From assembly GCF_013364355.1 (NCBI RefSeq), contig NZ_CP054931.1:3720001-3784000 (forward strand): a stretch of 64,000 bases of DNA, read 5' to 3'. The translations under genes and the position numbers were made by a program. The notes beneath the pieces are model-generated. The model saw nothing but the letters and a program-made list of their open reading frames with translations, was not told the origin of the DNA and ran no database searches. This document shows positions 1,002-30,049 of this stretch, piece after piece. The DNA comes from Stenotrophomonas sp. NA06056 (GTDB lineage Bacteria; Pseudomonadota; Gammaproteobacteria; Xanthomonadales; Xanthomonadaceae). Position 1 is the stretch's first letter. Each line of letters opens with the position of its first letter.

Positions 1002-1985
1002 ATGACAGACGCGATGTCCTCCTCACCGTTCGGCGGGGAACTCTGCCCGGAAATCTCGGTGGTGGCACCGGTCTATGGCTGCCAGGGCTGTCTGGAAGAC
1101 CTGGTGGACCAGGTGCAGGCGGCGATCGCAACGATGGGCGTGAGCTTCGAGATGATCCTGGTGGACGATGCCAGTCCCGACGGCGCCTGGACCCGGATCG
1201 CCGAGCTGGCCGCTACCCGCCCCTGGCTGCGCGGGCTTCGCCTGTCGCGCAACTTCGGCCAACATTCGGCCATCTCCGCCGGTATCGAGCATGCCACCGG
1301 CCGCTGGACCGTGGTGATGGACTGCGACCTGCAGGATGTGCCCAGCGAGATTCCGGCGCTGTACCGCAAGGCCAACGCTGAACAGCTCGATGTGGTGTTC
1401 GCGCAACGCCTCGAGCGCCAGGACAAGCCACTGAAGCGCCTTTCGTCCTGGGCCTTCTTCAGCGTACTGGGCTGGCTCACCGGCGTTCCGCAGGACCCAA
1501 GCACCGCCAATTTCGGTATCTACCACCGCAAGGTCATCCAGGCGGTATGCCAGATGCCCGAGCGTGACCGCTCGTTCCCGTTGATGGTCAAGTGGGCCGG
1601 CTTCCGCACCGGCAAGCTGCCGGTCCAGCACCAGGCGCGCGCGGTCGGGGAAACCTCCTACACCCTGCGCAAGCTGCTCAAGCTGTCCATGAACATCGCG
1701 CTGGGCTATTCGGAGAAGCCGCTGCGCATGGTCGCCGGCACCGGCATCGTGTGTTCGCTGGTCGCCTTCGTGCTGGTGGCCATGAGCCTGCTGCGCTGGT
1801 GGGACGGCGACATCGAAGTCGCCGGCTACACCTCCATCATCGGCTCGGTGTGGCTGATCGGCGGCCTGGTCATGTTCTGCCTGGGGGTGGTCGGCTTGTA
1901 TGTCGGCCAGGTATTCCGCAACGTTCAGAAGCGCCCCTATTACATCGTCGCCGATGCCGTGAACGACGAGCGGGAGGCACGATGA
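1002..1985 (+). CDS. GtrB/ArnC-like polyprenyl-phosphate glycosyltransferase (GT2)
   Basis: A 327-residue family 2 glycosyltransferase with the DPM1/GtrB/ArnC layout. The GT-A domain begins near residue 14 (I-S-V-V-A-P-V-Y), has V-D-D-A-S-P-D near residue 50 and a D-C-D-L-Q-D metal motif near residue 107, followed by two C-terminal membrane helices (about residues 243-267 and 277-305). Such enzymes move a nucleotide sugar onto undecaprenyl phosphate on the cytoplasmic face of the inner membrane. The length fits the family. The ATG at 1002 is chosen because the conserved domain starts right after it; an ATG at 900 would only add a non-conserved tail. The stop overlaps the next start as ATGA. 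As first gene of the operon it probably makes the lipid-linked donor sugar for O-antigen decoration. Confidence 0.88.
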   Translation: MTDAMSSSPFGGELCPEISVVAPVYGCQGCLEDLVDQVQAAIATMGVSFEMILVDDASPDGAWTRIAELAATRPWLRGLRLSRNFGQHSAISAGIEHATGRWTVVMDCDLQDVPSEIPALYRKANAEQLDVVFAQRLERQDKPLKRLSSWAFFSVLGWLTGVPQDPSTANFGIYHRKVIQAVCQMPERDRSFPLMVKWAGFRTGKLPVQHQARAVGETSYTLRKLLKLSMNIALGYSEKPLRMVAGTGIVCSLVAFVLVAMSLLRWWDGDIEVAGYTSIIGSVWLIGGLVMFCLGVVGLYVGQVFRNVQKRPYYIVADAVNDEREAR

Positions 1986-2740
1986 ACCTGCTCATCGACA
2001 ACGTCCATGGCCGTCTCGCCGCGCGCCTGACCCCTTGGGACGAGCGCGCTCTGGGTTTTGTCACCGCCGAAGTGACGCAGCTGCAGATCGACCACCCCGA
2101 ACAGGCCACTGCACTGCTGGCGGAGCTGGAACAATGGTGCGCGACGCAATCGGTGCACTATCTGTTCGGGCGCATCGATGCCACCCAGGCAGCGGCGAAG
2201 GCCGCCCTGCTCCAGCACGGCTACGCATTCGTTGAAACATCGCTGACCGTCTCGCGCAGCGGTTTTGCCAACCTGCCTCCCGTTCCGCGCGGCATGCTGC
2301 CGACGCTGCGCGCTGCAACCGCCGACGACATCGCCGCGCTGCGCCATATCGCCGCCACCGATTTCGCCCACGGCCGATTCCTCGAAGACCCGGCCATCGA
2401 CCCGCAGCGCGCCGCCCTGCGCACTGCCAACTGGATTGAAGACCTGGTCAATGCCGGGCTGGTGCAGGTGGCGGAATCACGCGGGCGCACCATCGGCTTC
2501 CATGCCGAACGCGTGGCCGCCGACCACAGCAACTGCGAGCTGCTGCTGACCGGCGCCAGCAGCCCCTATGCGATGCTGGCCCTGCCGCTGTGGATCACCG
2601 CACTGGAATCACTTGCCGCGCGCGGCCTCCCGCAGTGCACGACCCTCGTTTCTGCCGCCAACACGGGCATTCTGAACCTGTATGCCCGCCTCGGCTTCCA
2701 TTTCAACAGCACCCTGTTTGGGTTCAGGAAATTTCTATGA
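1982..2740 (+). CDS. WecD-like GNAT N-acyltransferase
   Basis: A 252-residue protein with a divergent N-terminal half and a C-terminal GNAT fold, the arrangement of WecD (dTDP-4-amino-4,6-dideoxygalactose N-acetyltransferase). A W-I-E-D-L-V segment near residue 158 matches the W-I-E-N-A-V stretch I recall in WecD, and the end (N-T-G-I-L-N-L-Y-x-R-L-G-F) is the typical GNAT C-terminal motif. With wecE in the same operon it would acylate the 4-amino group of a dTDP sugar. Because an acyl carrier protein and acyl-activating enzymes follow, the acyl donor may be acyl-ACP rather than acetyl-CoA; that is inference. It overlaps both neighbours by four bases. Confidence 0.75.
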   Translation: MNLLIDNVHGRLAARLTPWDERALGFVTAEVTQLQIDHPEQATALLAELEQWCATQSVHYLFGRIDATQAAAKAALLQHGYAFVETSLTVSRSGFANLPPVPRGMLPTLRAATADDIAALRHIAATDFAHGRFLEDPAIDPQRAALRTANWIEDLVNAGLVQVAESRGRTIGFHAERVAADHSNCELLLTGASSPYAMLALPLWITALESLAARGLPQCTTLVSAANTGILNLYARLGFHFNSTLFGFRKFL

Positions 2741-2985
2741 ATGATGCCGTCACCGAAGATCAGGTCGTTGCCGTTTTCGCCCGCGTGCTGGGCATTCCGG
2801 CCGATAGCGTGAATGATGACCTGCGCTACAACACCATCCCGCAGTGGGATTCGATCGCACACATGTCCGTGGTGGGCGCGCTGGAAGAAGCGTTCGGCGT
2901 GATGATCGACATGGATGAAGTGATCGACATGAGCTCGGTCGGCAAGGCGCGCGAGATCCTGCGCAAGCACGGCGCGGCCGTTTGA
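2737..2985 (+). CDS. Acyl carrier protein
   Basis: An 82-residue acidic protein of normal ACP size. The phosphopantetheine site is D-S-I (usually D-S-L) with Ser39 in Q-W-D-S-I-A-H-M, in the expected place before helix II. This is a stand-alone ACP inside a polysaccharide operon, not the fatty-acid-synthesis acpP context. It likely carries the acyl group activated by the downstream AMP-ligase, reduced by the FabG-like enzyme and used by the upstream WecD-like transferase. The start ATG overlaps the preceding stop (ATGA). Confidence 0.9.
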   Translation: MNDAVTEDQVVAVFARVLGIPADSVNDDLRYNTIPQWDSIAHMSVVGALEEAFGVMIDMDEVIDMSSVGKAREILRKHGAAV

Positions 2986-3731
2986 CCGTGGCTGACGTGC
3001 TGCCTGTCATCCTGGTCACCGGCGCATCGCGCGGCATCGGCCGGGCCATTGCCCTGCACCTGGCCGCGCAGCATGCGCAGCTGGTGCTGGTGGCCCGCGA
3101 CGAACAGGCACTGGCTGAACTGGACACGCAGATCCAGGCGTTGGGTGCGCCAGCAGCGATGTGCGCCGCTCTGGACCTGACCGATGCCGATGCCATCGCC
3201 GGGCTGTTCAAGCAGGTGTTTGCCCGCTTCGGGCGGCTGGACGGACTGGTCAACAACGCCGGTGTCCTGCACGAAGGGCTGCTCGGCATGATCCGTGCCG
3301 AGGACATCGACCAGGTGCTGGCGGTCAACGTCAAAGCGCCGCTGATGGCAATGCAGTACGCCGCACGGCTGATGGCACGTACCGGCAAGGGCAGCATCGT
3401 CAACCTGGTCTCGATCATGGGCGTCAATGGCGCGGCTGGCCTCAGCCTGTACGCGGCCAGCAAGGCTGCGCTGGTCGGAGCCACCCGTTCGGCATCCAAG
3501 GAATTGGCCGCACGCGGCATCCGCGTGAACGCGGTGTCGCCGGGCTTCATCGATACCGACATGACCCGCAGCATGCCCGAGGCTGCGCACGCCAAGCGTG
3601 TGGCTTCGATCGCGATGGGCCGTGCCGGCACTCCGGAGGAGGTCGCCGCACTGGTGGCCTTCCTGCTCAGCGATGCTTCCACCTACGTCACCGGACAGGT
3701 GATCGGCATCGACGGACAAATGGTGGTCTGA
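2982..3731 (+). CDS. FabG-like short-chain dehydrogenase/reductase
   Basis: A classical SDR of about 249 residues: T-G-A-S-R-G-I-G cofactor motif near residue 11, N-N-A-G near residue 90, and Y-A-A-S-K as the catalytic Tyr/Lys. It most resembles 3-oxoacyl-ACP reductases, so next to an ACP it probably makes a 3-hydroxyacyl-ACP. The start is uncertain: TTG at 2982 overlaps the ACP stop, while GTG at 2988 gives a protein two residues shorter. The next gene starts at the base after its stop. Confidence 0.88.
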   Translation: MTVADVLPVILVTGASRGIGRAIALHLAAQHAQLVLVARDEQALAELDTQIQALGAPAAMCAALDLTDADAIAGLFKQVFARFGRLDGLVNNAGVLHEGLLGMIRAEDIDQVLAVNVKAPLMAMQYAARLMARTGKGSIVNLVSIMGVNGAAGLSLYAASKAALVGATRSASKELAARGIRVNAVSPGFIDTDMTRSMPEAAHAKRVASIAMGRAGTPEEVAALVAFLLSDASTYVTGQVIGIDGQMVV

Positions 3732-5132
3732 ATGCCGTTCTGGAACCTGGAACAACACGGCAACCGCGTCGCCCTGATCGAGGGCGATCAGCTGCTGGAC
3801 TATGCCACCCTCGCCAAGCTGGCGGACCAACAGGCGGCGCGACTGCCCGACGGTCGCGGCATGGGCCTGCTGTGCATGCCCAGTCATACCGAGGCCGTGG
3901 CGCTGTATCTGGGCGCACTGCGCAGTGGCCGGCAGGTGCCGTTGCTGCTGCAGCCGGATACCGACCCGCAGCTGCTGGCCGAGCTGGTTGCGCACTACCA
4001 GCCCGACTGGATCGCAAGCCCAGGCCCGGCCGCCGAAGGTTACCAGACCGTACAGCAGGGCCAGGCGCTGGCACTGCACGTGCGCCGCACGGCGCCCGGC
4101 GTGGACGCGCCGCACCCCGACCTTGCCCTGCTGCTGAGTACATCCGGCAGCACCGGTTCGTCCAAGCTGGTGCGCCTGTCGGCGCAGGGCCTGGATGCCA
4201 ATGCCAGCGCCATCGTCCAGTACCTGGGCCTGCAGGCCGACGACCGCGCGATCACGACCCTGCCGCTGGCCTACTCGTTCGGCATGTCCATCCTCAACAG
4301 CCACCTGGCCGCAGGCGGTTCGGTGGTGCTGAGCGAGGACAGCCTGATGACGCGCGGCTTCTGGGACAGCGCGCGCCGCCACGCCATCTCCTCGCTGTCC
4401 GGTGTTCCGGCCACCTTCGAGATCCTGCGCCGGATGGGATTGGCGCGCATGCAGCTGCCCAGCCTGCGCATGCTGACCCAGGCCGGCGGCCGCCTGCGCG
4501 ACGAACTGGTGGCCTACTTCGCCGAATCCAGCCTGGAACATGGCCTGGCGTTCTTCGTCATGTACGGGCAGACCGAAGCATCGCCGCGGATCAGCTACGT
4601 TCCGGCTGCACGCATCGTCGACAAAGTCGGCAGCATCGGCGTGCCGGTGCCCGGTGGTCACATGCAGGTTGATGCTGCCACTGGCGAGCTGGTCTACTCC
4701 GGCCCCAACGTGATGATGGGCTACGCCACCGCACGCAATGACCTGGCCAAAGGCGACGAACTGCACGGCGTGCTGCGCACCGGCGACCTGGCCCGCGTCG
4801 ACGAGGACGGGTTCCACTACATCACCGGTCGCGCCAAGCGCTTCCTGAAAATTTCCGGCAACCGGGTCAACCTTGATGAAGTCGAAGCCATGCTGTCTTC
4901 GGCATTGGGCCAGCAGATCGCGTGCTCGGGCGCTGACGATGACCTGGTAGCCTTCAGCCACGGCGCACAGGTGGCCGACCAGGCGCAGGTGCGTCAGCTC
5001 GTGCAGGAACGCTACAAGCTGTTCGGTGGTCACGTCCGTACCCTCCACCTGGAGGCGCTGCCCCTGATGGCCAGCGGCAAGGTGGATTACCAGAGTCTCC
5101 GGCAGATGGCCGGACAAGGAGCTGCAAGGTGA
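3732..5132 (+). CDS. AMP-dependent acyl ligase (ANL superfamily)
   Basis: A 466-residue adenylate-forming enzyme. Visible core motifs are the phosphate loop S-T-S-G-S-T-G-S-S-K (about residues 135-144), Y-G-Q-T-E-A near residue 278, R-T-G-D-L near 350 followed by G-R-A-K-R-F-L-K, and the C-terminal catalytic Lys in A-S-G-K-V-D-Y. It activates a carboxylic acid with ATP, most likely loading it on the operon's ACP (acyl-ACP synthetase). It is shorter than typical acyl-CoA synthetases (over 500 residues). It starts directly after the SDR stop, and its own stop overlaps the GTG of the next gene. Confidence 0.85.
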   Translation: MPFWNLEQHGNRVALIEGDQLLDYATLAKLADQQAARLPDGRGMGLLCMPSHTEAVALYLGALRSGRQVPLLLQPDTDPQLLAELVAHYQPDWIASPGPAAEGYQTVQQGQALALHVRRTAPGVDAPHPDLALLLSTSGSTGSSKLVRLSAQGLDANASAIVQYLGLQADDRAITTLPLAYSFGMSILNSHLAAGGSVVLSEDSLMTRGFWDSARRHAISSLSGVPATFEILRRMGLARMQLPSLRMLTQAGGRLRDELVAYFAESSLEHGLAFFVMYGQTEASPRISYVPAARIVDKVGSIGVPVPGGHMQVDAATGELVYSGPNVMMGYATARNDLAKGDELHGVLRTGDLARVDEDGFHYITGRAKRFLKISGNRVNLDEVEAMLSSALGQQIACSGADDDLVAFSHGAQVADQAQVRQLVQERYKLFGGHVRTLHLEALPLMASGKVDYQSLRQMAGQGAAR

Positions 5133-6235
5133 CCCTGCCTGCCCCATCGGCCGCCAACGCAGCGGCCGCACTGGATGTCGACGTCTTCGGCATGGACCGT
5201 ACCCATAAGCGCACGTGGTTGCTGGAGGGGCTGAACCGCCTGACCGCCCACCATCGCGCGCACTGTGCGCCCTACGCCCGCATCCTTGATGGCCTGTGGC
5301 CGGCTGAAGACGCTGCCAGCCTTGAGCAGGTGCCGTGGCTGCCGGTGCGCATGTTCAAGCTCATGGACCTCAAGAGCGTTGCCGATGACCAGGTCTCGCG
5401 CACGCTGGTGTCCAGTGGCACGACCGGCGCCGCGGTGTCGCGCATCTTTCTCGACGCTGATACCGCACGCGCACAAGCGCGGGCATTGACCCGCATCTTT
5501 TCCCATTTTGCCGGGTCCAAGCGCCTGCGCATGCTGGTGGTCGACGATTCAAGCTTCCTGCGTGATCGCAGCCGCTTCAACGCCCGTGCAGCCGGCATCC
5601 TGGGCTTCTCCAATTTCGGCCGCGACCACCTCTACCTGCTCGATGAAGACCTGCAGCCGGACTGGGCCGCACTGGAACACTGGCTGCAGGCAAATCCTGA
5701 CGAGCCGGTCCTGCTGTTCGGCTTCACCTTCATCGTCTGGCAATCGTTCGTGCAGGCCGCACGCCGCGACGGCAAGCAGATCCGCTTCCCGGCCGGCAGC
5801 ATGCTGGTGCACGGCGGCGGCTGGAAGAAGATGGACGAGCAGAAGGTCGACAACGTGGCCTACAAGGCAGCGCTGTCGGAGACCTTCGGCATCGAGCGCG
5901 TGCACAACTACTACGGGATGGTCGAACAGGTCGGCTCGATCTTCTTCGAATGCGAACACGGCCACCTGCATGCGCCCGCTTATGCCGATGTGATCGTGCG
6001 TGACCTGCAGGACCTGAACCCGGTGGCGCATGGCACGACAGGCGCGATCCAGGTACTGAGCCTGCTGCCGGAAAGTTATCCCGGCCACAGCCTGCTGACC
6101 GAAGATCTTGGCGTGATCCATGGCGAGGACGATTGCCGCTGCGGCCGCCCCGGCAAGCACTTCGCCGTGCTCGGCCGCATCAAGAACGTGGAAATCCGCG
6201 GCTGCAGCGATACCCGCACGGTACCCAACGCATGA
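5129..6235 (+). CDS. LuxE-like acyl-protein synthetase
   Basis: A 368-residue protein of the LuxE/PaaK-like acyl-protein synthetase family. It has the S-S-G-T-T-G-A adenylate-binding loop near residue 94, H-G-G-G-W-K-K near 229 and a Cys/His-rich C-terminal stretch (E-C-E-H-G-H and C-R-C-G). In bioluminescent bacteria LuxE adenylates a fatty acid and passes it to LuxC for reduction to aldehyde. Here a LuxC-like gene follows directly (ATGA overlap) but there are no luciferase genes. In this operon the pair probably makes an acyl aldehyde, or transfers an acyl group, for O-antigen sugar modification. Start is GTG at 5129, overlapping the ligase stop. Confidence 0.82.
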   Translation: MTLPAPSAANAAAALDVDVFGMDRTHKRTWLLEGLNRLTAHHRAHCAPYARILDGLWPAEDAASLEQVPWLPVRMFKLMDLKSVADDQVSRTLVSSGTTGAAVSRIFLDADTARAQARALTRIFSHFAGSKRLRMLVVDDSSFLRDRSRFNARAAGILGFSNFGRDHLYLLDEDLQPDWAALEHWLQANPDEPVLLFGFTFIVWQSFVQAARRDGKQIRFPAGSMLVHGGGWKKMDEQKVDNVAYKAALSETFGIERVHNYYGMVEQVGSIFFECEHGHLHAPAYADVIVRDLQDLNPVAHGTTGAIQVLSLLPESYPGHSLLTEDLGVIHGEDDCRCGRPGKHFAVLGRIKNVEIRGCSDTRTVPNA

Positions 6236-7455
6236 CCAGACTGCTCTTCTCGATCCATCCCGATGCCACGCTGGACGCTGAGCTGGCGCGCCTTTCGGCA
6301 TTGCCTCCGCTGTTGCCTTTCAGTGCTCAGCTTCGCGAGTTCGTGGCTGATTTTTCGCGACGGGTGTTCAACCTGCCGCAGCTGCGCCAGCATCCGGAAC
6401 TGGCCACGCTTGGCCACTGGTTCCGGGGTGCGGCGGTCAACCAGCTGTCACAGCGCATCGGCACGCGCGCATCCGAACTGGACCTCGCCCGCGGTCTGGT
6501 CTTCCACCTCGCGCCAGCCAATGTCGACGTGCTGTTCGCCTATGCCTGGCTGATGTCGGTGCTGTCGGGCAACACCAACGTGGCACGCCTGTCGCAGAAG
6601 CAGAGCACCCAGCGCGATGCGCTGGTGTCGATCCTGCATGACATGCAGCGCGAAGGCCTGCACCCACAGGTGCTGGAACGCGCGGTACTGCTGACATATC
6701 CGCACGACGATGCGATCACCACGGCGATTTCCCGCCATTGCCATGCGCGCATCATCTGGGGCGGTGACGCCACGGTCGCCAAGATCCGCTCGCTGCCCAT
6801 CGCCCCGCTGGCTGTCGAACTCGCCTTCCCCGATCGTTTCGGCGTGGCGGTGATGCGCGCCGCCGCTCTGGTTGAATGCAGCGAAGCCGATCTGCAGGAA
6901 CTGGCGCGGCGCTTCTGCAACGACGTGCTCTGGTTCGGCCAGCAGGCCTGCTCCTCACCTCGCACCCTTTACTGGGTGGGTGATGATGCCGGGATTGCCG
7001 CAGCCAAGTCTCGCTTCTGGCCGACAGTGCGCGCCCAGGCCGCAGCGCTGGAGGACGAGCCCGCAGCACTGATGGCGCGGGTAACGGATGCCAACCTGCT
7101 GGCTGCAACTGGTCATGGCGTGCATTCAGCCGATGCCATCGGCCTGTATCCGCTGCGTCTGGAAGCCGCGCGTGCCGATGGCGGGATCCGCGAAATCCAG
7201 TCCGGTCACGGCCTGGTGGTTGAGATCGACCTGCCTGCACTCGATGCATTGGCGCCACAGCTTGACGACCGCGACCAGACGCTGGTCCAGCATGGTTTCA
7301 GCACATCGGCGCTGCGCGACTTTCTGTGCCATCTCGCCAATCGCGCCATTGATCGCGTCGTGCCGTTCGGCCGCGCCCTGGACTTCCACCCGGTCTGGGA
7401 CGGCACGGACCTTCTCGATGTCCTTACCCGCAAGATCACCCTACCAGCGACCTGA
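6232..7455 (+). CDS. LuxC-like acyl-CoA/acyl-protein reductase
   Basis: A 407-residue protein of the acyl-CoA reductase (LuxC) family. The motif Q-Q-A-C-S-S-P places the acyl-accepting Cys at residue 240, and the surrounding R-F-C-N-D-V-L-W-F-G stretch fits the family. LuxC reduces an enzyme-bound acyl thioester to an aldehyde with NADPH. With the adjacent LuxE-like and ACP genes this forms an acyl reduction module whose product is unknown. An ATG at 6133 exists in frame, but the ATG at 6232 gives the ATGA overlap and the expected N terminus. Confidence 0.82.
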   Translation: MTRLLFSIHPDATLDAELARLSALPPLLPFSAQLREFVADFSRRVFNLPQLRQHPELATLGHWFRGAAVNQLSQRIGTRASELDLARGLVFHLAPANVDVLFAYAWLMSVLSGNTNVARLSQKQSTQRDALVSILHDMQREGLHPQVLERAVLLTYPHDDAITTAISRHCHARIIWGGDATVAKIRSLPIAPLAVELAFPDRFGVAVMRAAALVECSEADLQELARRFCNDVLWFGQQACSSPRTLYWVGDDAGIAAAKSRFWPTVRAQAAALEDEPAALMARVTDANLLAATGHGVHSADAIGLYPLRLEAARADGGIREIQSGHGLVVEIDLPALDALAPQLDDRDQTLVQHGFSTSALRDFLCHLANRAIDRVVPFGRALDFHPVWDGTDLLDVLTRKITLPAT

Positions 7456-7459
7456 CCCG

Positions 7460-7825
7460 ATGAGCTACGTTTTCATTGCCCTGACCATCCTGCTGACCGT
7501 CTACGGCCAGCTCATGCTGAAGTGGCAGGTCAGCCTCAATCCCGGGTCGACCATCGACGGCATGAACCTGCGCGCGATCCTCACCCTGCTGCTCAATCCC
7601 TGGGTGATCAGCGCCTTCGCGGCGGCCTTCGGCGCTTCTTTGTGCTGGATGGCGGCCATTGGACGGATGCCGCTGAGCAAGGCCTATCCCTTCACCGCAT
7701 TGAGTTTCCCGCTGGTGGCAACCCTTGCGGTATGGCTCTTTCGCGAGTCCTTCGACTCGCATAAGATCGCCGGCACCGCCTTGATCATCCTGGGCGTCAT
7801 CGTACTGTCTCGTTCCGGAGCCTGA
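7460..7825 (+). CDS. EamA/SMR-like four-helix membrane protein, possible lipid-sugar flippase
   Basis: A 121-residue hydrophobic protein with four predicted membrane helices and the P-L-S-K-A-Y-P-F motif typical of the SMR/EamA superfamily, to which the ArnE/ArnF undecaprenyl-phosphate aminoarabinose flippases belong. It lies four bases after the LuxC-like gene and upstream of a methyltransferase. Together with the GtrB/ArnC-like enzyme it probably flips the lipid-linked modified sugar to the periplasm. A drug-efflux role is less likely in this setting. Confidence 0.75.
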   Translation: MSYVFIALTILLTVYGQLMLKWQVSLNPGSTIDGMNLRAILTLLLNPWVISAFAAAFGASLCWMAAIGRMPLSKAYPFTALSFPLVATLAVWLFRESFDSHKIAGTALIILGVIVLSRSGA

Positions 7826-7828
7826 ACC

Positions 7829-8455
7829 ATGTCGCAGAAGACCGATGGGTTGCACGCAGTGCTATCACACCCGGCGGTCTACGACCTGCTGCAGAACCTG
7901 CTGGGGGCGCGTCGTTCCCGTACGCGACTGATCCGGGACCACATCCGTCCCCGCCAAGGCGACCACATCCTGGACATCGGTTGCGGCACCGGCGAGCTCT
8001 TCAGCCAGATGCCACCTGGCCTGCGCTACGTCGGATTCGATCTGTCCCAAGCCTATATCGATGCCGCACGGAAGCGGTTTGGTGACAGGGCTCGCTTCGA
8101 GTGCATGGACGTGGCCGACTATGAAGTGGGCCAGGAGCAGCAGCAGAAGGCCGATCTGGTGCTGGCCATCGGCATCCTGCATCACCTCGACGATTCCCGT
8201 GCACGTGCGCTGATGCGGACCGCGCATGCCGCCCTCAAGCCCGGCGGCCGTTTCATCTCACTCGATGGTGCCTATGTGGATGGCCAATCGGCCATCGCCC
8301 ATGGCCTGATCGCGCGCGACCGTGGCCAGAGCATCCGCACTCCGGCCGCTTACCAGTCCCTGGCCGAAGCCGAATTCGGCTCGGTCAAGGGCCAGGTGAG
8401 AAGCGATATGCTTTTCGTACCCTATACACACTACATCATGGAATGCGTGCGCTAG
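7829..8455 (+). CDS. Class I SAM-dependent methyltransferase
   Basis: A 208-residue methyltransferase with SAM motif I I-L-D-I-G-C-G-T-G near residue 49, an acidic residue at the end of strand 2 (V-G-F-D-L-S), and the post-motif V-L-A-I-G-I-L-H-H-L-D. The substrate is not evident. In this operon it may N- or O-methylate the amino sugar or its acyl group. It begins three bases after the flippase stop. Confidence 0.8.
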   Translation: MSQKTDGLHAVLSHPAVYDLLQNLLGARRSRTRLIRDHIRPRQGDHILDIGCGTGELFSQMPPGLRYVGFDLSQAYIDAARKRFGDRARFECMDVADYEVGQEQQQKADLVLAIGILHHLDDSRARALMRTAHAALKPGGRFISLDGAYVDGQSAIAHGLIARDRGQSIRTPAAYQSLAEAEFGSVKGQVRSDMLFVPYTHYIMECVR

Positions 8456-8484
8456 GCCAACGCCTGCCACGATCAGGAGCAGCA

Positions 8485-9618
8485 GTGATTCCGTTCAACA
8501 AGCCCTTCATGACTGGCCAGGAGCTGGTCAACATCACCCATGCGCACGCCAATGGGCATCTCAGTGGCGATGGTCCGTTCACCAAACAGTGCCACGCGTG
8601 GCTGAACCAGCGCACCGGCGCCAACGCATCGCTGCTGACCCACTCCTGCACGGCCGCACTGGAAATGGCAGCGCTGCTGCTGGACCTGGAGGACGGCGAC
8701 GAAGTGATCATGCCGTCCTACACGTTTGTCTCGACCTCCAATGCCTTCGTGCTGCGTGGGGCGGTACCCGTGTTCGTGGACATCCGCGCCGACACGCTGA
8801 ACATCGATGAGACGCTGATCGAGGCCGCGATCACTCCGCGCACCAAGGCCATCTGCGTGGTGCATTACGCCGGTGTAGCCTGCGAAATGGACGAGATCCT
8901 GGCCATCGCCGCACGCCATGGTCTGGCCGTGGTCGAGGATGCCGCGCAGGGGATCATGTCCACCTACAAGGGACGGCCGCTGGGCACCATCGGCGACCTC
9001 GGCGCACTGAGTTTCCACGAAACCAAGAACATCATCTCCGGTGAAGGTGGCGCGCTGCTGTGCCGCGACCACACCCACGCCGAACGTGCCGAGATCATTC
9101 GTGAGAAGGGCACCAACCGCAGCCGCTTCTTCCGCGGGCAGGTCGACAAATACACCTGGGTGGACGTAGGTTCCTCGTTCCTGCCCGGCGAGATCACCGC
9201 AGCGTTCCTTGCTGCCCAGATGGACGCCGCCGAAGACATCACCGCGCGCCGCCTGGCCATCTGGGACCGCTACCATGCCTGGGCAGCGCCACATGAGGCG
9301 GCAGGTCGTCTGGTGCGGCCAACCATTCCGGCGCACACCACCCACAACGCGCACATGTACTACATGCTGCTGCCGTCGCTGGAGGCACGCACTGCATTCA
9401 TCCAGCTGCTGCGCGAGCAGGGCGTGCAGGCCGTCTTCCACTACATCCCGCTCCACTCTTCGCCCGCTGGCATCAGCAACGGCCGCACCGGTTCGACCAT
9501 GCAGATCACCGACAGCCTCAGCGAGCGCCTGGTGCGCATGCCGCTGTGGATCGGTGTGGAATCCCAGATGGACCTGATCCTGGAGGCCGCCGACAAGGCT
9601 CTGGAGCAGATCGCATGA
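8485..9618 (+). CDS. wecE: dTDP-4-amino-4,6-dideoxygalactose transaminase
   Basis: A 377-residue DegT/DnrJ/EryC1 aminotransferase with very close resemblance to Escherichia coli WecE (RffA): it starts I-P-F-N, has S-C-T-A-A-L-E-M-A, V-V-E-D-A-A-Q-G, E-K-G-T-N-R-S and G-Q-V-D-K-Y-T-W, and the PLP Lys is K181 in F-H-E-T-K-N. It converts dTDP-4-keto-6-deoxyglucose to dTDP-4-amino-4,6-dideoxygalactose. The GTG at 8485 is preceded by AGGAG and gives the conserved N terminus; an ATG at 8443 would overlap the methyltransferase. No rmlA/rmlB genes are in the window, so the keto sugar must come from elsewhere. Confidence 0.93.
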   Translation: MIPFNKPFMTGQELVNITHAHANGHLSGDGPFTKQCHAWLNQRTGANASLLTHSCTAALEMAALLLDLEDGDEVIMPSYTFVSTSNAFVLRGAVPVFVDIRADTLNIDETLIEAAITPRTKAICVVHYAGVACEMDEILAIAARHGLAVVEDAAQGIMSTYKGRPLGTIGDLGALSFHETKNIISGEGGALLCRDHTHAERAEIIREKGTNRSRFFRGQVDKYTWVDVGSSFLPGEITAAFLAAQMDAAEDITARRLAIWDRYHAWAAPHEAAGRLVRPTIPAHTTHNAHMYYMLLPSLEARTAFIQLLREQGVQAVFHYIPLHSSPAGISNGRTGSTMQITDSLSERLVRMPLWIGVESQMDLILEAADKALEQIA

Positions 9619-11516
9619 CCCAGCTGCACCCCTCTGCCAGCGGCGCGATCCCGGCGTGGCGCGCGCCGCCGGTGCAGGCATCGGTCGCCTTCGTGGTACG
9701 CATGCTGGGGCTGATGCTGGTCGCCGCAGCCTGTGGCAACGCCCTGCTGTACAGCGACGCGGCGGCCACACCGCTGGTCCAGTCCGATGCCTGGTACTTC
9801 CTGGAAAGCTTCCTGACGCGCTATTTCGACGGCACGCTGACCTTCCTGGATCTGTTCGTGCAGCGGGGTGCAGGCGACCATGCACAGCCATTGCAGAAGC
9901 TGGTGCTGTTGTTCCACACCCGCTACTTCGGCATGGACTTCGGCATCGAAGGACTGATCGGCACTGCCATCGGCATCCTCTGGTGCTGTGCCATCGCGCA
10001 CGAGATGCGCCGGCAGCCGGCCACCGATGGCCTGCGCAATGCCCTGTCGTGGCTGTCCATCGGCCTGGTGTTCGCACTCGGGCTTTCGCTGAACAGCTCC
10101 AACATTTTCACGTGGCCGCTGGCCACGCTGGGGTTCATACCGCTGCTTCTGGGCACACTGTACTTCTCGCTGACGATGACCCAGCTGGAACGGCAACGGC
10201 CAGGCTGGGTCCTGCTGGCCACGGCCCTGCTTGGCGCGTGCATCGACGAGATCGCCGTGGTGGTGGTGATCGCCGCCGTGCTGGCCTGGATTCCGATGCT
10301 GGGCTCCAGCACCCGGCAGAAGGCGCGGACCGCAGGTGCAGCGGTGCTGGGCCTGGTGGCGGCGCGGCTGTTCCTGGCCTGGGCAGCCCATCGTGCAGGC
10401 GCGACATCGGTGCTGATCGAGCCCAAAGGTTCACTGGTCGATACACTGCTGACCGGCGAAGCCTTGCGCGGCCTGCTCATCCCCTTCTCCGACAGCCTCA
10501 TCCACGTCGAGCACCTCGCCCGCTGGTTCCCGGCATCGACGACCTCGATGATCGCCCTGTGTGCCGCCCTGGTAGCGGGCCTGCACCTGTATTTCTGGGT
10601 CAGCGTCCTGCTGGCGTGGCGCGCGGGCCGCTACACGCGCACGCTGGCGCTGGCGACGTTCCTGATGCTGGTGGCCTATGGCCTTACCGCCGGCATCATC
10701 ATCAGCCGCGTACCCGCCTATGACTGGAACTACCTGCACCAGCCGCGCTACGTGATGTCCTACCAGATGAGTCTGGTGGCATTGGCGGTGCTGTTCCAGC
10801 AGCGCCTGTGCCAGATCGACCTGACAGCGTCCGCCCTGCGCCTGTGGATCGAGCGCACCAGTGTCGTGATGGTCATGGCCCTGCTGATCTGGCTGCAGTG
10901 GGCAGTGACCCAGGCCAACTGGGGCCTGCCCTACTACCTGTCTTCCTATTGGCAGAACGCCGCGCTCTCAATGCAGAAACTGGCCGCCGACCCCTTGCAT
11001 GAGCCGGGCCCGTGCCCGGACATCATGACCGTATGCGCCTACCCGGCCGAGCGACGGGCCAAGCTGATCGGATTGCTGCGGGACAAGCAGTTGAACGTGT
11101 TCTCACCCGCCTTCCAGATGCGCTACCGGCTGTATCCCTCGCTGGCCAACATTCCCGGCTTCGGCCCTGGCCAACCGCAGGAGCAACAGTTCGACCCGCG
11201 CATTCGCGAAGCGGCGGCGCCAGCCGTTCTGGCCGCGCTCCCCGTTGCGGGCAGCTGTGCGCTGGGCACGGCCCCGCAGGCGATGCGGATCGAACTGGAT
11301 TCGCGGGACCTGGCACCGTTCGGCGCGCATCTGTGGGTCGAATCGGTCGGTGCAAGCCGCACCCTGTTGGCGGCCACAGCACCCGGCCAGACCACGCTGA
11401 CCCTAGAGCATGCGGTTCCCAACCATTCGCTGCTGACACTGGTGCGCGCCGATGGGCAGGGCGTTCTGGCCCAATCGCAGATCGACCTGCCCGCCTGCAC
11501 CGCCCCGACGCGCTAG
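9615..11516 (+). CDS. Polytopic membrane protein, GT-C-like glycosyltransferase or O-antigen modification protein
   Basis: A 633-residue protein with about eleven membrane helices between residues 25 and 430, followed by a soluble tail of about 190 residues. An early loop after helix 1 carries Q-S-D-A-W-Y-F, where GT-C enzymes often place catalytic acidic residues. The layout (GtrB-like enzyme, small flippase, large membrane protein) matches O-antigen glucosylation systems in which the last protein transfers the sugar from lipid carrier to O-antigen in the periplasm. I see no diagnostic O-antigen ligase or polymerase motif. The ATG at 9615 overlaps the wecE stop. Confidence 0.6.
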   Translation: MTQLHPSASGAIPAWRAPPVQASVAFVVRMLGLMLVAAACGNALLYSDAAATPLVQSDAWYFLESFLTRYFDGTLTFLDLFVQRGAGDHAQPLQKLVLLFHTRYFGMDFGIEGLIGTAIGILWCCAIAHEMRRQPATDGLRNALSWLSIGLVFALGLSLNSSNIFTWPLATLGFIPLLLGTLYFSLTMTQLERQRPGWVLLATALLGACIDEIAVVVVIAAVLAWIPMLGSSTRQKARTAGAAVLGLVAARLFLAWAAHRAGATSVLIEPKGSLVDTLLTGEALRGLLIPFSDSLIHVEHLARWFPASTTSMIALCAALVAGLHLYFWVSVLLAWRAGRYTRTLALATFLMLVAYGLTAGIIISRVPAYDWNYLHQPRYVMSYQMSLVALAVLFQQRLCQIDLTASALRLWIERTSVVMVMALLIWLQWAVTQANWGLPYYLSSYWQNAALSMQKLAADPLHEPGPCPDIMTVCAYPAERRAKLIGLLRDKQLNVFSPAFQMRYRLYPSLANIPGFGPGQPQEQQFDPRIREAAAPAVLAALPVAGSCALGTAPQAMRIELDSRDLAPFGAHLWVESVGASRTLLAATAPGQTTLTLEHAVPNHSLLTLVRADGQGVLAQSQIDLPACTAPTR

Positions 11517-11575: not shown

Positions 11576-12577
11576 TCAGGCGGCAGGGACCACGTGGGCC
11601 GGTGGCTTGCGCTTGAGGCGCGACAACGGCCGGTCGATCAGGATCACGATCAGCCAGGACAGCGCAACGGTTGCCGCGAAGGCAGGCAGGAAGAAGGTCG
11701 CGAACGGACGGGTGAAGCCGCAGGCGCAGACGAACCAGGCTGCAACCGTGGTGTGGATCAGGTAGATCGGATAGCTCAGGTCACCGAGCATCTTGTCCAC
11801 CTTGCCCGAGGGCTGCGCGTGCAGCGACACCACCATCCACGCCGACAGCACCAGCGACACGTACAGGCCCCACGTCCACGGCCAGCTCTGCAGGAACACC
11901 CAGACCACGCCGTGCAGCATCCAGACGATCGAGCTGGTCCACGGCATGCGGAACCGCTCCAGCTGGGTACGGTACTGGCAGACCAGCGAGCCGACGGCAA
12001 ACGGCAGCAGGCACGGCAGGAAGGTGGCGTAACGGTCGCCGAAGGTCTCGGTGACGATACCCATCTTCAGGTTCAGCAGCGCACCGATGACCACGCCCAG
12101 CCACGCCGCTCCGCGCGAGGTCGCCATCAGCGGCAGCAGCAGGTAGAAGCCCACTTCGATGGCCAACGCGTTGGCCACCGGCACCGGCATGCCACCGCGC
12201 TGGATGCCCGGGAACAGCGTGATCACGTAGGCCCAGTCCTGCAGGCCCTTGGGCATGTGGAACTCGCCATTGATCGGACGCAGATCGATACCGATGCCGT
12301 TGTAGTACCAGAGAGTCAGCAGGCCCATGATCGCGGCCAGCCAGTACAGCGGGAAGATGCGCATGAAACGGTTGAAGGCATATGCCTTGATGCCACGGCC
12401 ATCAAAGCCATACTTGGTGGTCAGCACCAGCGTCATCAGGAAGCCGCTGAGCACGAAGAATGCCCAAACCGCGTAGGCCGCATAACCCTGCGGCATGTTC
12501 GACCAAAGGTGTGAACCGGCCACCAGCGAGGCCAGCACGAAGCGGCTGGCACCAAAACCAAACACAGGAAGTTTCAA
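11576..12577 (-). CDS. Acyltransferase family 3 (OafA-like) membrane protein
   Basis: A 333-residue integral membrane acyltransferase with about ten helices. It carries the family signature region G-A-S-R-F near residue 8 (the usual catalytic His position holds Ser-Arg), F-F-V-L-S-G-F near residue 40, and R-I-F-P-L-Y-W near 70. OafA-like proteins O-acetylate O-antigen or other surface sugars from the inner membrane. I chose the TTG at 12577 because a GGAG lies just upstream and the family homology begins there; an in-frame ATG at 12667 would overlap the preceding lipoprotein gene. It is the last gene of the minus-strand block. Confidence 0.8.
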   Translation of the reverse strand: MKLPVFGFGASRFVLASLVAGSHLWSNMPQGYAAYAVWAFFVLSGFLMTLVLTTKYGFDGRGIKAYAFNRFMRIFPLYWLAAIMGLLTLWYYNGIGIDLRPINGEFHMPKGLQDWAYVITLFPGIQRGGMPVPVANALAIEVGFYLLLPLMATSRGAAWLGVVIGALLNLKMGIVTETFGDRYATFLPCLLPFAVGSLVCQYRTQLERFRMPWTSSIVWMLHGVVWVFLQSWPWTWGLYVSLVLSAWMVVSLHAQPSGKVDKMLGDLSYPIYLIHTTVAAWFVCACGFTRPFATFFLPAFAATVALSWLIVILIDRPLSRLKRKPPAHVVPAA

Positions 12578-12608
12578 GAGAGTGCTCCACTCAGGGGCGA
12601 AGGCCGCA

Positions 12609-13094
12609 TCACGGTGCGGCCGGGCTGTCGGACGTGCATTCGGTTGCGCTGGCGCGAACCACGCCAATCACGCGATCGGTCCCGTCCAGCAGCGTCAGTT
12701 CGCCACCATCCTCGAACCACGGCCCGGTGGTCTCGGTGCCATTGGCGCCACCTTCCGCCCACAGCTTGGCCACCTGGGTGCGGCTGCCGGCGGTGATCTG
12801 CACGAAGGTCAGCCCCGGCAGCGCCGAGCTCCACTGCACCTGGACTTCAGCGGCAGCACCGCGTCCAGCCCGGCACTTGAGCTTGCTTACGTGTGCCTGC
12901 AACGTGATGCCCTCCACGCTGGCGTGGGTCAGGGTCAGGCCAGGCACGGATGCGTCGGTCACGCTTGCTCCCATCTCGGCGGGCATCGTGCTGGTTCCCT
13001 GGGCCCCCGCGCGACGGCGGCCCTCTTCGTCGCAGCAGCCTGCCAGGGCAAGGCCCAGCAGAACGGACGCGAGCATCCTTGGAGTCAAGCTCAT
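12609..13094 (-). CDS. Small predicted lipoprotein of unknown function
   Basis: A 161-residue protein with an N-terminal signal and a lipobox L-A-L-A-G-C, so Cys20 should be lipidated. The mature part is hydrophilic with two further Cys (about residues 74 and 154). I do not recognise a family. It lies between the GDP-heptose genes and the OafA-like gene, in the same direction and with short gaps, so it may be carried along with the O-antigen operon. Confidence 0.65.
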   Translation of the reverse strand: MSLTPRMLASVLLGLALAGCCDEEGRRRAGAQGTSTMPAEMGASVTDASVPGLTLTHASVEGITLQAHVSKLKCRAGRGAAAEVQVQWSSALPGLTFVQITAGSRTQVAKLWAEGGANGTETTGPWFEDGGELTLLDGTDRVIGVVRASATECTSDSPAAP

Positions 13095-13193
13095 TCTTTA
13101 TCTCTGATGAACGCCACTGCGGCGACGGGGCATTCTTACCCACGTCGCAGGGTCGGTAAAGCACCGGGCTTGGCCGAAATACTTTCTGCCTGT

Positions 13194-13799
13194 TCAGATC
13201 GGCAACAACGCCTGCACCTGTGAAAGCGTCATGCACGCGTGGAAACTGCCCTCATCCACGACACCCTCGCCGGTGTCATCACCAAGCAGGAAGCACTGCC
13301 CGACGCCGGCGGCCTGGCCAGCCTGCACATCCGTGCGCTTGTCGCCCACCAGCACCGAGCGGGGCCAGTCCACCGCATGTGCCTGGTCCATGGCATGCAA
13401 CATGCCCGGTGCCGGCTTGCGACAGCTGCACTCCACCCGGTAGGCGCCCTGCCCGGCCTGCTGGTGATGCGGGCAGTACCAGGTTGCCGCGATCTGCACG
13501 CCTTCAGCGGCGAAACACGCGTGCATCCATGCGGTGTACTCGGCAAACTGCTGTTCGCTGTAGTAGCCGCGTGCAATTCCCGCCTGGTTGGTCACCACCA
13601 CCAGTGCATACCCACGCGCCTGCGCCTCGCGGCACAGCTCGAAAATTCCCGGCACCCATTCGGTGCCGGCCGGGGTATGGACGTAGCCATGGTTGATATT
13701 GATCACGCCGTCGCGATCGAGAAACAGCACCCGGCCCAGTGGTGCGCCTGCGGCCGGCCAACCTGGACCGACCACGCACCCGGGTTGCGGCATCGTCAT
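13194..13799 (-). CDS. gmhB: D-glycero-D-manno-heptose 1,7-bisphosphate 7-phosphatase
   Basis: A 201-residue HAD phosphatase with L-F-L-D-R-D-G-V-I-N (nucleophile and acid Asp about residues 27 and 29), T-N-Q-A-G, the zinc loop C-P-H-H ... C-S-C-R-K-P and V-G-D-K-R-T-D. These are the hallmarks of GmhB, which removes the 7-phosphate of D-glycero-D-manno-heptose 1,7-bisphosphate. It overlaps the hddC-like gene by four bases. Its place in an O-antigen cluster points to the GDP-heptose branch rather than the ADP-heptose core branch. Confidence 0.9.
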   Translation of the reverse strand: MTMPQPGCVVGPGWPAAGAPLGRVLFLDRDGVININHGYVHTPAGTEWVPGIFELCREAQARGYALVVVTNQAGIARGYYSEQQFAEYTAWMHACFAAEGVQIAATWYCPHHQQAGQGAYRVECSCRKPAPGMLHAMDQAHAVDWPRSVLVGDKRTDVQAGQAAGVGQCFLLGDDTGEGVVDEGSFHACMTLSQVQALLPI

Positions 13800-14503
13800 G
13801 GTTTGCCGCCGGCAAAGATGTGCTGCGCGCGCCGGTAGTCCTCAGGCACCCCGATATCGATGAAGTCAGCGGTATCCACGCAGGCAGCCAGACCCTCACT
13901 GGCGGCCCGTGGCAGCAGCACATCGGTCTCGAACGAGAACACCGGCTTGTCCGGCAATGAAGACAGCGCGGCTGGGCCGAGGAAGTAGCTGCCGGCATTG
14001 ATGAAGCCGGGGCCGTGACCGCCCTTTTCGTTGAATGCCGCAACACGGCCATGCGCGAGTTCGACGGCACCGTAGCGGCCAACGTCCTCGACCTTGGCCA
14101 GGGCGACCGCAAGGGACACCTGCTCGCGCTCCGCATGTTGCTGCAACTGCCGCGGCGAGTAACGCAGATAGGTATCGCCGTTGCTCATGTGGACGGCATG
14201 GCCGTGCAACTGACGGGCGGCCAATGCCAGTGCACCGCCGGTCCCCAGCGGCTCGGGCTCGCGCGAATACACCACGTCCATGCCCTGCCAGCGGCGCCCG
14301 ATGGCCTGTTCGACACGCTCGGCCAGGTATCCGGTGGCCAGGATCACGCGACGGATGCCGCCCTCGGCGAGATTGTCGAGCACGTAGGCCAGGAACGGAC
14401 GTCCCGCCACCGGCGCCAGCGGCTTGGGCAGATCGGGCACTTCCGAGCGCAGGCGGGTACCGAAGCCTCCCACCAGCACAATGGCTTCATCGGCAATGAT
14501 CAT
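13796..14503 (-). CDS. hddC: D-glycero-alpha-D-manno-heptose 1-phosphate guanylyltransferase
   Basis: A 235-residue nucleotidyltransferase with V-G-G-F-G-T-R-L near the N terminus and P-K-P-L-A-P-V near residue 27, plus the G-D-T-Y metal site near residue 105. Next to hddA, gmhA and gmhB it most likely transfers GMP to heptose 1-phosphate. The ATG at 14503 is chosen because the conserved strand starts three residues later; an in-frame ATG at 14602 would overlap gmhA. Confidence 0.85.
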   Translation of the reverse strand: MIIADEAIVLVGGFGTRLRSEVPDLPKPLAPVAGRPFLAYVLDNLAEGGIRRVILATGYLAERVEQAIGRRWQGMDVVYSREPEPLGTGGALALAARQLHGHAVHMSNGDTYLRYSPRQLQQHAEREQVSLAVALAKVEDVGRYGAVELAHGRVAAFNEKGGHGPGFINAGSYFLGPAALSSLPDKPVFSFETDVLLPRAASEGLAACVDTADFIDIGVPEDYRRAQHIFAGGKP

Positions 14504-14553
14504 GGTCGAGTGTCCTGCAGAAGAGTCATCATGCTCCGGGCCATCGCGATGGA

Positions 14554-15156
14554 TCAGCCCGCTTCCGCGCGCGGGAACATTTCGCTTTCGATCAGCGCGC
14601 ACAGCAGGTGGCCGATGAACTCATGGCCCTCCTGGATGCGCGGCGTTTCGTTGGAGGGAATGCAGAAGCAGATTTCGCAGCGATCCTTCATGTCGCCACC
14701 GTGCTCGCCGGTGAAGCCGATCACCCGCACGCCCTTGGCTTCGGACGCTTCAAGCGCGCGCATGATGTTCTTCGAACGACCCGAGGTCGAGATCGCCACG
14801 AACACGTCACCTGCCTGGCCCAGCGCTTCAATCTGGCGGGCGAAGGTGTAGTCGTAACCGTAGTCGTTGCCGATGGCGGTCAGGATCGAAGTGTCGGTGG
14901 TCAGCGCGATCGCCGGCAGGCCCGGGCGATCGTAGTAGAAACGGCTGACCAGCTCGCCGGCCCAGTGCTGCGCGTCGGCGGCACTGCCGCCGTTGCCGGC
15001 GAAGAGGATCTTCTTCCCGGCGCGCAACGCCTCTACGCACAACGCCACGGCGTCGCGGATCTGCTGCTGCAGCGCGGCGTCGGCAGCCATGCGGCGGAAA
15101 TTCTCCTGCGCCTTGCCGAACTCTTCTTCAATGAAGGCGTTCATCCCAGTTTCCAT
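14554..15156 (-). CDS. gmhA: Phosphoheptose isomerase (SIS domain)
   Basis: A 200-residue SIS-domain protein with G-N-G-G-S-A-A-D-A-Q-H near residue 55 and S-T-S-G-R-S-K-N near 122, as in GmhA, which converts sedoheptulose 7-phosphate to D-glycero-D-manno-heptose 7-phosphate. The ATG at 15156 has a GGAG seven bases upstream. A second ATG at 15144 would form an ATGA overlap with hddA and is also possible. Confidence 0.92.
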   Translation of the reverse strand: METGMNAFIEEEFGKAQENFRRMAADAALQQQIRDAVALCVEALRAGKKILFAGNGGSAADAQHWAGELVSRFYYDRPGLPAIALTTDTSILTAIGNDYGYDYTFARQIEALGQAGDVFVAISTSGRSKNIMRALEASEAKGVRVIGFTGEHGGDMKDRCEICFCIPSNETPRIQEGHEFIGHLLCALIESEMFPRAEAG

Positions 15157-17134: not shown

Positions 17135-17144
17135 GGCCTGCTCC

Positions 17145-20100: not shown

Positions 20101-20402
20101 ACCACGTCCACGCAGTCCTCGGGCAGTGGCACCTGCGCGGCCGAGCCCTGCAGGTACTGCAGGTTGGCGCGGTCGGCGTACTTCTCGGCGGCATGCGCTA
20201 CGGCATCGGCGGAAATATCGACGCCGCGCACCGAGCGCGCCTGGCCGGCCAGCATCGCGCTGCCGTAGCCTTCGCCGCTGGCCAGATCCAGCACATCCTT
20301 GCCGGCCACGATGGGAAGGCACCAGGCGTACCGATGCAGGTGCTCCTGCCGGATCACGCCCTGCTCGCTGGGAACAAAGCGCTCGCCAGTGAACTCGATC
20401 AT
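17145..20402 (-). CDS. Trifunctional methyltransferase / GT2 / GT4 O-antigen assembly protein
   Basis: A 1085-residue multidomain protein. Residues about 1-220 form a SAM methyltransferase ([11 protein letters not shown] near residue 38). About 245-330 is a charged, probably coiled-coil linker. About 428-680 is a GT2 domain (S-V-I-V-P-T-Y-G, then L-N-N-D-T-E). About 690-1065 is a GT4 domain ([11 protein letters not shown] near 985). In ABC-exporter O-antigen systems such fusions build the chain and may methylate the terminal residue to stop growth. The Wzt next door has the extra C-terminal domain that reads such caps, so chain-terminating methylation is a reasonable inference. It overlaps the wzt stop by four bases. 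Confidence 0.85.
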
Positions 20403-30048: not shown

Positions 30049-30049
30049 G

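Follow-up and report, generated by a model that had tools for sequence, protein, structure and literature searches.

A putative O-antigen side-branch operon in Stenotrophomonas sp. NA06056 combining a LuxE/LuxC acyl cassette with 4-amino-sugar genes

Gene content of the operon

The stretch analysed (the window) comprised 64,000 nucleotides of Stenotrophomonas sp. NA06056 (contig NZ_CP054931.1, positions 3,720,001 to 3,784,000) and belongs to a 4.52 Mb single-contig genome. The open reading frame (ORF) listing showed an operon of 11 ORFs, all on the plus strand, at 1002..11516 of the window, in agreement with an earlier note, made from the sequence alone, that had described eleven packed plus-strand genes there. 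With the start codons adopted, neighbouring ORFs overlap by up to 13 bases or lie up to 4 bases apart at the ten junctions, six of which are 4-base overlaps; if GTG 8485 is taken as the WecE start instead of ATG 8443, that junction becomes a 29-base gap. The eleven genes were as follows:

1002..1985, plus strand: family 2 glycosyltransferase (GT2), polyprenyl-phosphate sugar synthase, ArnC/GtrB-like (PF00535)
1982..2740, plus strand: WecD-like GNAT N-acyltransferase (NCBIfam wecD_rffC; predicted WecD fold)
2737..2985, plus strand: dedicated acyl carrier protein (ACP) (PF00550; DSI attachment site)
2982..3731, plus strand: FabG-like short-chain dehydrogenase/reductase (SDR), TTG start (PF13561/PF00106; YxxxK)
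3732..5132, plus strand: AMP-forming ligase (PF00501)
5129..6235, plus strand: LuxE-family acyl-protein synthetase (PF04443)
6232..7455, plus strand: LuxC-family acyl-thioester reductase (PF05893)
7460..7825, plus strand: small EamA/ArnF-like flippase (PF00892)
7829..8455, plus strand: S-adenosylmethionine (SAM)-dependent methyltransferase, an optional part (PF08242/PF13649)
8443..9618 (or from GTG 8485), plus strand: WecE, dTDP-4-keto-6-deoxyglucose 4-aminotransferase (NCBIfam PRK11706)
9615..11516, plus strand: GT-C-fold membrane glycosyltransferase with a C-terminal beta domain, the fastest-diverging part of the operon (predicted fold)

WecE scored 589 bits on NCBIfam PRK11706, above the curated equivalog cut-off of 375, and its best PDB matches, 6blg and 4piw, had E of about 1e-137. 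It contained the lysine of the SFHETKN motif, which we take to be the pyridoxal phosphate (PLP) lysine of WecE. A Pfam search of the WecD-like enzyme produced zero matches; on NCBIfam wecD_rffC it scored 36.4 bits (E 3.7e-9), under the curated cut-off of 195.1, and its predicted structure has the WecD fold. Both assignments had been made before; that of WecE was upheld by score and that of the acyltransferase by fold. The GT2 synthase scored 157 bits on the ArnC model (cut-off 529) and had two hydrophobic segments at its C-terminus, while the flippase scored 31.5 bits on PF00892 (cut-off 28.2) and 55.7 bits on the ArnF model (cut-off 99). The last ORF produced zero matches on Pfam and was predicted to have a GT-C fold of the ArnT type. 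The previously noted chain of a GtrB/ArnC-like enzyme, a small flippase and a large membrane protein corresponds, by family and predicted fold, to a trio of polyprenyl-phosphate synthase, flippase and GT-C transferase. The methyltransferase gene (7829-8455) had been left unnamed.

Pfam supported the full acyl set proposed earlier (ACP, FabG-like reductase, AMP-forming ligase, LuxE and LuxC). LuxE scored 168.7 bits on PF04443 (cut-off 24.9) and LuxC 89.4 bits on PF05893 (cut-off 21). On the NCBIfam equivalog models for long-chain luminescence, LuxE scored 71.2 bits and LuxC 32.5 bits, and the cut-offs of 550 and 750 were not reached; judged by these scores, the LuxE/LuxC family here is not of the long-chain luminescence type. 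None of the eleven operon genes matched a luciferase family, as had been stated, the rest of the genome not being searched for luciferase. A role in luminescence or with a long-chain aldehyde was rejected on these two grounds. The SDR scored 239 bits on the FabG model TIGR01830 and did not reach its cut-off of 297.75, and all nine PDB matches of the AMP ligase at E <= 1e-20 were acyl-CoA synthetases and peptide-synthetase adenylation domains.

In profile matches that were weak but significant, LuxE Cys359 paired with Cys364 of the LuxE in 7xc6_E, and LuxC Cys240 with the cysteine of DQQAC in 7xc6_A. We take these aligned cysteines to be the acylated ones and the 7xc6 proteins to be from Photobacterium. 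In the wider set of loci described below, the LuxE and LuxC cysteine motifs were both kept in 56 of 56 five-gene loci, and over all loci the motif counts were 74 of 77 for LuxC, 70 of 71 for the ACP serine and 60 of 60 for the SDR YxxxK. Because the catalytic residues align with 7xc6 and are conserved across loci, the reductive half of the cassette (LuxE/LuxC) is probably active.

Genomic position and recurrence of the gene order

The operon sits between etfA and metB, together with wzm and wzt, which places it in the etfA-metB lipopolysaccharide (LPS) locus of xanthomonads. This locus is known as hypervariable (PMC524487), has convergent units in xanthomonads, and is also found in Stenotrophomonas maltophilia R551-3 (PMC2238763).

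The gene order gtrB, acyltransferase, acp, sdr, ligase, luxE, luxC, flippase, optional methyltransferase and wecE adjoined etfA in all 8 of the other Xanthomonadaceae assemblies examined (L013 and L016-L022, L016 being from Stenotrophomonas geniculata ATCC 19374; L011, L012 and L014 duplicate the DNA of L016, L017 and L020 and were counted once; L013 and L018 are 93% identical and perhaps close relatives or one species). The suggested co-occurrence of LuxC and LuxE with ACP and WecE was found beside etfA in every case, and the recurrence of this order goes beyond chance. Cassette members were 64-95% identical across the eight assemblies, rmlB was kept in 7 and the methyltransferase in 3. A homologue of the GT-C gene was present in 4 of the 8 at 30-62% identity; in the remaining 4, none was found at 1e-15. 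Because the sugar-making unit is constant and the last transferase variable, the operon resembles a serotype determinant. Two local irregularities were seen: other DNA lay between luxC and the flippase gene in L021, and the ligase gene of L013 was split over two reading frames at about 11467-11473, which is either a sequencing error or a switched-off copy.

The closest LuxE matches among the named hits were from Stenotrophomonas (91-92%). A 16S family search of the genome gave no match, and kinship was judged from these protein hits and from named relatives. At E 1e-3, 7 of the 61 genomes in the relatives set had the LuxE gene; the 37 genomes of the same genus accounted for 5 of these, that of the window included. 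At family level, 8 of 395 genomes had it at E 1e-50. In the class, a LuxE alignment search gave 4 of 369 genomes at 1e-30 and a PF04443 search 7 of 369 at 1e-10.

The surroundings of the operon were read from Pfam domains and gene order. Upstream lie manC, rmlD, rmlC, rmlA, rmlB and etfA, followed by a sulfatase-family gene. Downstream there is one further feature:

11576..22544, minus strand: convergent metB-side O-antigen unit, outside the operon (context; Pfam domains)

This unit contained acyltransferase 3, a HAD phosphatase (gmhB-like), a sugar nucleotidyltransferase, a SIS-domain (gmhA-like) protein, a GHMP kinase, a GDP-mannose dehydratase-like protein, a methyltransferase-GT2-GT1 fusion, wzt with Wzt_C, and wzm; beyond wzm, a Cys/Met-metabolism PLP enzyme occupies the place of metB. 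The fusion joins its methyltransferase, GT2 and GT1 domains in one protein of 1085 amino acids (window 17145-20402). The sulfatase-family (PF00884) membrane protein between etfA and the operon has about 838 amino acids (window 1-774 plus about 1740 bases upstream; L105:258-2771), and, judged by eye, its C-terminal part seems to contain two similar stretches of about 95 amino acids each. Farther along (window 28765-31489), the gene of a radical SAM protein precedes that of a DUF4130-uracil DNA glycosylase fusion.

The acyl cassette in other bacteria

A LuxE-alignment scan of named genomes yielded at least 512 confirmed relatives, of which the best 80 were analysed, so that the sample favours close relatives, and several loci were cut by contig ends. 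Record titles assigned the 80 loci to Proteobacteria, Bacillota, Bacteroidota, Ignavibacteria, Gastranaerophilales and others. Matches were counted anywhere in the retrieved stretch or within the distance given. The ligase was immediately upstream of LuxE in 71 loci and LuxC immediately downstream in 74. Among the 59 sufficiently flanked loci, all five cassette genes were found within 6.5 kb in 49, and a DegT enzyme anywhere in the stretch in 45. In the 56 five-gene loci, the pairwise distances of ligase, LuxE and LuxC correlated with each other at 0.87-0.90; the values for ACP with these three were 0.72-0.74 and those for the SDR 0.54-0.62, the highest value after shuffling being 0.16.

The putative aldehyde-processing genes varied. 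An SDR was found without a thiamine pyrophosphate (TPP) enzyme in 42 of the 80 loci, a split transketolase, its N and C halves encoded by separate genes, in 19 (e.g. L038, L046, L053, L057, L062, L085 and L089) and an IlvB-like TPP enzyme in 9; a full transketolase pair and IlvB together occurred in none, and 10 loci, several of them short contigs, had neither SDR nor TPP enzyme. For the neighbours, 140 of the 309 ORFs from flanked loci (Xanthomonadaceae omitted) were drawn randomly and 118 used, 22 being dropped by judgement, mostly short or opposite-strand ones. The 118 included 16 NeuB, 11 GNAT (PF13302), 9 transketolase N, 9 transketolase C, 5 TPP_enzyme_C and 2 lactate/malate dehydrogenase.

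Among annotated records, a Deinococcus plasmid showed the same cassette order in an exopolysaccharide-type locus, a Ponticoccus plasmid had the run ACP-SDR-ligase-LuxE with LuxC separate on the opposite strand, and a Rhizobium plasmid had a rearranged cassette of the transketolase version. A search of E. coli genomes for close matches to the Lelliottia cassette found none. Several single loci stood apart. L093 had two LuxE/LuxC pairs and an IlvB-like gene, with a transketolase C half at the stretch edge. L102 (Rhizobium anhuiense plasmid pRA_T24_2) had LuxE/LuxC, DegT, an AMP ligase, an LpxA-like acyltransferase, and a split transketolase with FabZ and a GMC oxidoreductase. L106 (Salmonella enterica plasmid CP053580) had a distant LuxE relative (28%) and two other AMP-forming enzymes near a peptidase-ABC transporter pair, a context unlike the glycan loci of the set. 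In two Gastranaerophilales loci a lactate/malate dehydrogenase-family gene stood immediately after luxC (L064:12250-13200 and L087:12196-13101); two loci are too small a number to serve as support.

Proposed pathway and alternatives

The gene structure of the operon is sound, and its reading as an O-antigen operon is likely. On balance, and with modest confidence, we regard it as a serotype-variable O-antigen side-branch operon that makes acylated 4-amino-4-deoxyfucose (Fuc4N). WecE would convert the rmlA/rmlB product to dTDP-Fuc4N, and the cassette would turn a dicarboxylic acid, with a malate-like acid as the best guess, into a small hydroxyacyl group. One carboxyl would be taken by LuxE as a Cys-thioester, which LuxC would release as an aldehyde and the SDR reduce to an alcohol, while the other carboxyl would be joined to the dedicated ACP by the AMP ligase. 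Loading and reduction could occur in either order; reduction on the ACP would prevent lactone formation. The WecD-like GNAT enzyme may then take the acyl group off ACP and put it on the 4-amino nitrogen, and in some strains the methyltransferase may methylate the sugar or the acyl group. The ArnC/GtrB-like GT2 enzyme would charge undecaprenyl phosphate (Und-P) with the acyl-amino sugar, the ArnF-like flippase would export Und-P-Fuc4N-acyl, and the GT-C enzyme would attach acyl-Fuc4N to the O-polysaccharide.

The two carboxyl-activating systems are closely paired, which argues for a dicarboxylic acid with one end reduced and the other becoming acyl-ACP; it is the best explanation because a monocarboxylic acid reduced by LuxE/LuxC leaves no carboxyl for ligase and ACP. 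The earlier note had proposed O-antigen decoration through an acyl group on a 4-amino-dideoxy sugar. Support for this comes from WecE, from the predicted WecD and GT-C folds and from the location between etfA and metB, and the 4-amino-4,6-dideoxy unit and a glycan-serving acyl set stand on sequence and position; the substrates, the order of steps, the group made and its arrival at the O-antigen are the inferred part.

An older parallel is Vibrio cholerae O1, whose perosamine bears 3-deoxy-L-glycero-tetronate, i.e. 2,4-dihydroxybutanoate (PMC3441752, PMC12208996), and whose RfbN has a LuxE domain (PMC4772473). Its tetronate chemistry would fit the dicarboxylate route by analogy, a tetronate route that may begin at malate. 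The operon shares with rfbK-O/wbeK-O (VC0248-VC0252) a carrier protein, an AMP ligase and a LuxE-domain protein serving the N-acyl of a 4-amino-4,6-dideoxyhexose in an ABC-exported O-antigen; by description, all tetronate functions have candidates in the operon, but of SDR and WecD type, and perosamine is in the main chain. In V. cholerae, RfbN is presumably a LuxE/LuxC fusion and an alcohol dehydrogenase stands in for the SDR, and we know of no lipid-linked side-branch step in that system. Yersinia ruckeri O1 reportedly carries 4-hydroxybutanoyl; the passages of its paper contained no statement on the cassette and gave no second chemistry check.

For the transfer chain, the Arn pathway (ArnB, ArnC, ArnE/F, ArnT) places an N-acylated 4-amino sugar on Und-P. 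It shares with the operon a DegT aminotransferase, an EamA flippase and an ArnT-type fold, but the operon misses the ArnB (196.7 against 631), ArnC and ArnF cut-offs and would use a dTDP-hexose instead of a UDP-pentose. The WecE equivalog and the WecD fold for dTDP-Fuc4N are shared with the enterobacterial common antigen, where acetyl-CoA is the donor and not, as predicted here, a special acyl borne by ACP; the WecD score was also under its cut-off. Three-component side-chain systems (Shigella/Salmonella gtr, Klebsiella galactose, C. youngae O1) share the polyprenyl-phosphate sugar synthase, flippase and GT-C enzyme and occur also on O-antigens made by ABC transporters, but they add plain Glc, Gal or ribofuranose, not an acyl-amino sugar made by the same operon (PMC11127046).

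The earlier note knew of no described system with this gene set. This does not hold for the acyl cassette, since published sets of ACP, 3-oxoacyl-ACP reductase, AMP synthetase, luxE and luxC exist in Aeromonas flagellin glycosylation islands (PMC7874193), in Enterobacteriaceae (PMC4875605) and in Dickeya zeae, there with added split transketolase genes (PMC7575072). Matched by gene type and not by sequence, the Aeromonas group II island (orf1 ACP, orf2 reductase, orf3 AMP synthetase, luxE, luxC) shares five types with the operon, but has pseudaminic acid (Pse) genes alongside and flagellin as target, and the retrieved passages assign no product to it. The union of the cassette with wecE, a WecD-like enzyme and an Arn/Gtr-like three-component chain was not found described in searches of open-licence PubMed Central papers, for the most part of their result listings, nor was a Stenotrophomonas O-antigen with Fuc4N among the matches examined there. 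The Shewanella oneidensis sfm genes were rejected as a parallel (the term luxE is absent from the paper; the cluster has NeuB and a TPP enzyme), and a Clostridium flagellin paper had no mention of LuxE, acyl carrier or transketolase.

In Aeromonas AH-3, five ORFs of this kind lie downstream of pseH, and the glycan on its polar flagellin begins with a pseudaminic derivative of 376.14 Da and terminates in an unassigned 102 Da unit (PMC7874193). The computed masses are 102.032 for C4H6O3 and 376.148 for Pse5Ac7Ac with one acetyl swapped for C4H6O3; the passages from the AH-3 authors do not link these masses to dihydroxybutanoyl. We suggest tentatively, and with less than even confidence, that ligase-LuxE-LuxC-ACP is a general mobile maker of tailored glycan acyl groups from dicarboxylic acids via a tethered aldehyde, which the SDR would reduce or a transketolase or IlvB-like TPP enzyme extend, that a local N-acyltransferase would move the group, and that the 102 and 376 Da units of AH-3 would carry dihydroxybutanoyl.

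Several points weigh against the proposed pathway. The O-antigen as acceptor is suggested by position, in a strain known here from its genes alone. V. cholerae presumably has an iron alcohol dehydrogenase at the place of the SDR, the two cassettes being set side by side by description. Linkage to the rest of the cassette is loosest for the SDR, which was not found in 15 of the 80 loci, some cut by contig ends, and the null behind the distance correlations retains species relatedness. Since LuxE and LuxC are both below their NCBIfam cut-offs, transferring a substrate by name is unsafe. RfbL acts on 2,4-dihydroxybutanoate, which favours reduction before loading and not on the ACP (PMC3441752, PMC12208996). 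For AH-3, the published masses give 102.05 for the last unit, a value that leaves C4H6O3 and C5H10O2 unseparated, and a review terms an AH-3 Pse derivative, apparently the lateral one, probably phosphorylated (PMC3958885), so that the 376 Da link is a mass match, a lead and no proof.

Among the alternatives, the same chemistry could serve another acceptor (core or lipid A, flagellin or pilin). The ArnC/ArnF resemblance and ArnT-type fold recall lipid A modification, and published cassette relatives serve flagellin, but the GT-C gene has diverged much more quickly than its partners, which would be expected of a serotype-specific transferase, and we consider this other acceptor unlikely. Rather less probable is an N-acyl of 3-hydroxybutyryl made by ACP and the FabG-like SDR, with LuxE/LuxC for another step: several bacterial glycans bear this group on amino sugars (PMC3210612), but no role is left for ligase, LuxE and LuxC, the most tightly linked trio. 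A fatty acyl or fatty aldehyde for a lipid-bearing sugar, with fatty-acid or liposugar roles proposed in PMC7874193 and PMC4875605, draws on the long-chain acids used by luminescence LuxC/LuxE; it is improbable given the long-chain model scores, the four-carbon acid of V. cholerae, the 102 Da unit of AH-3 and the WecD fold of the neighbouring gene. Least probable is that the LuxC aldehyde is coupled to the sugar amine or extended by a C-C bond instead of reduced, since the transketolase pairs and IlvB-like enzymes that suggest it elsewhere (19 and 9 of 80 loci, never together) have no counterpart in the operon, which has an SDR and a WecD-fold acyltransferase.

LuxC and LuxE are taught as light genes and have been guessed to be lipid makers in flagellin papers. 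If the proposal is true, a short-acid, dicarboxylate-reducing role would give the cassette one biochemical meaning across a range that takes in Deinococcus, Bacillales, Bacteroidia and Proteobacteria, the acyl groups of O-antigen and flagellin would become predictable from genes, and the cassette would be tied to unassigned mass-spectrometry data. Its product is now chemically testable.

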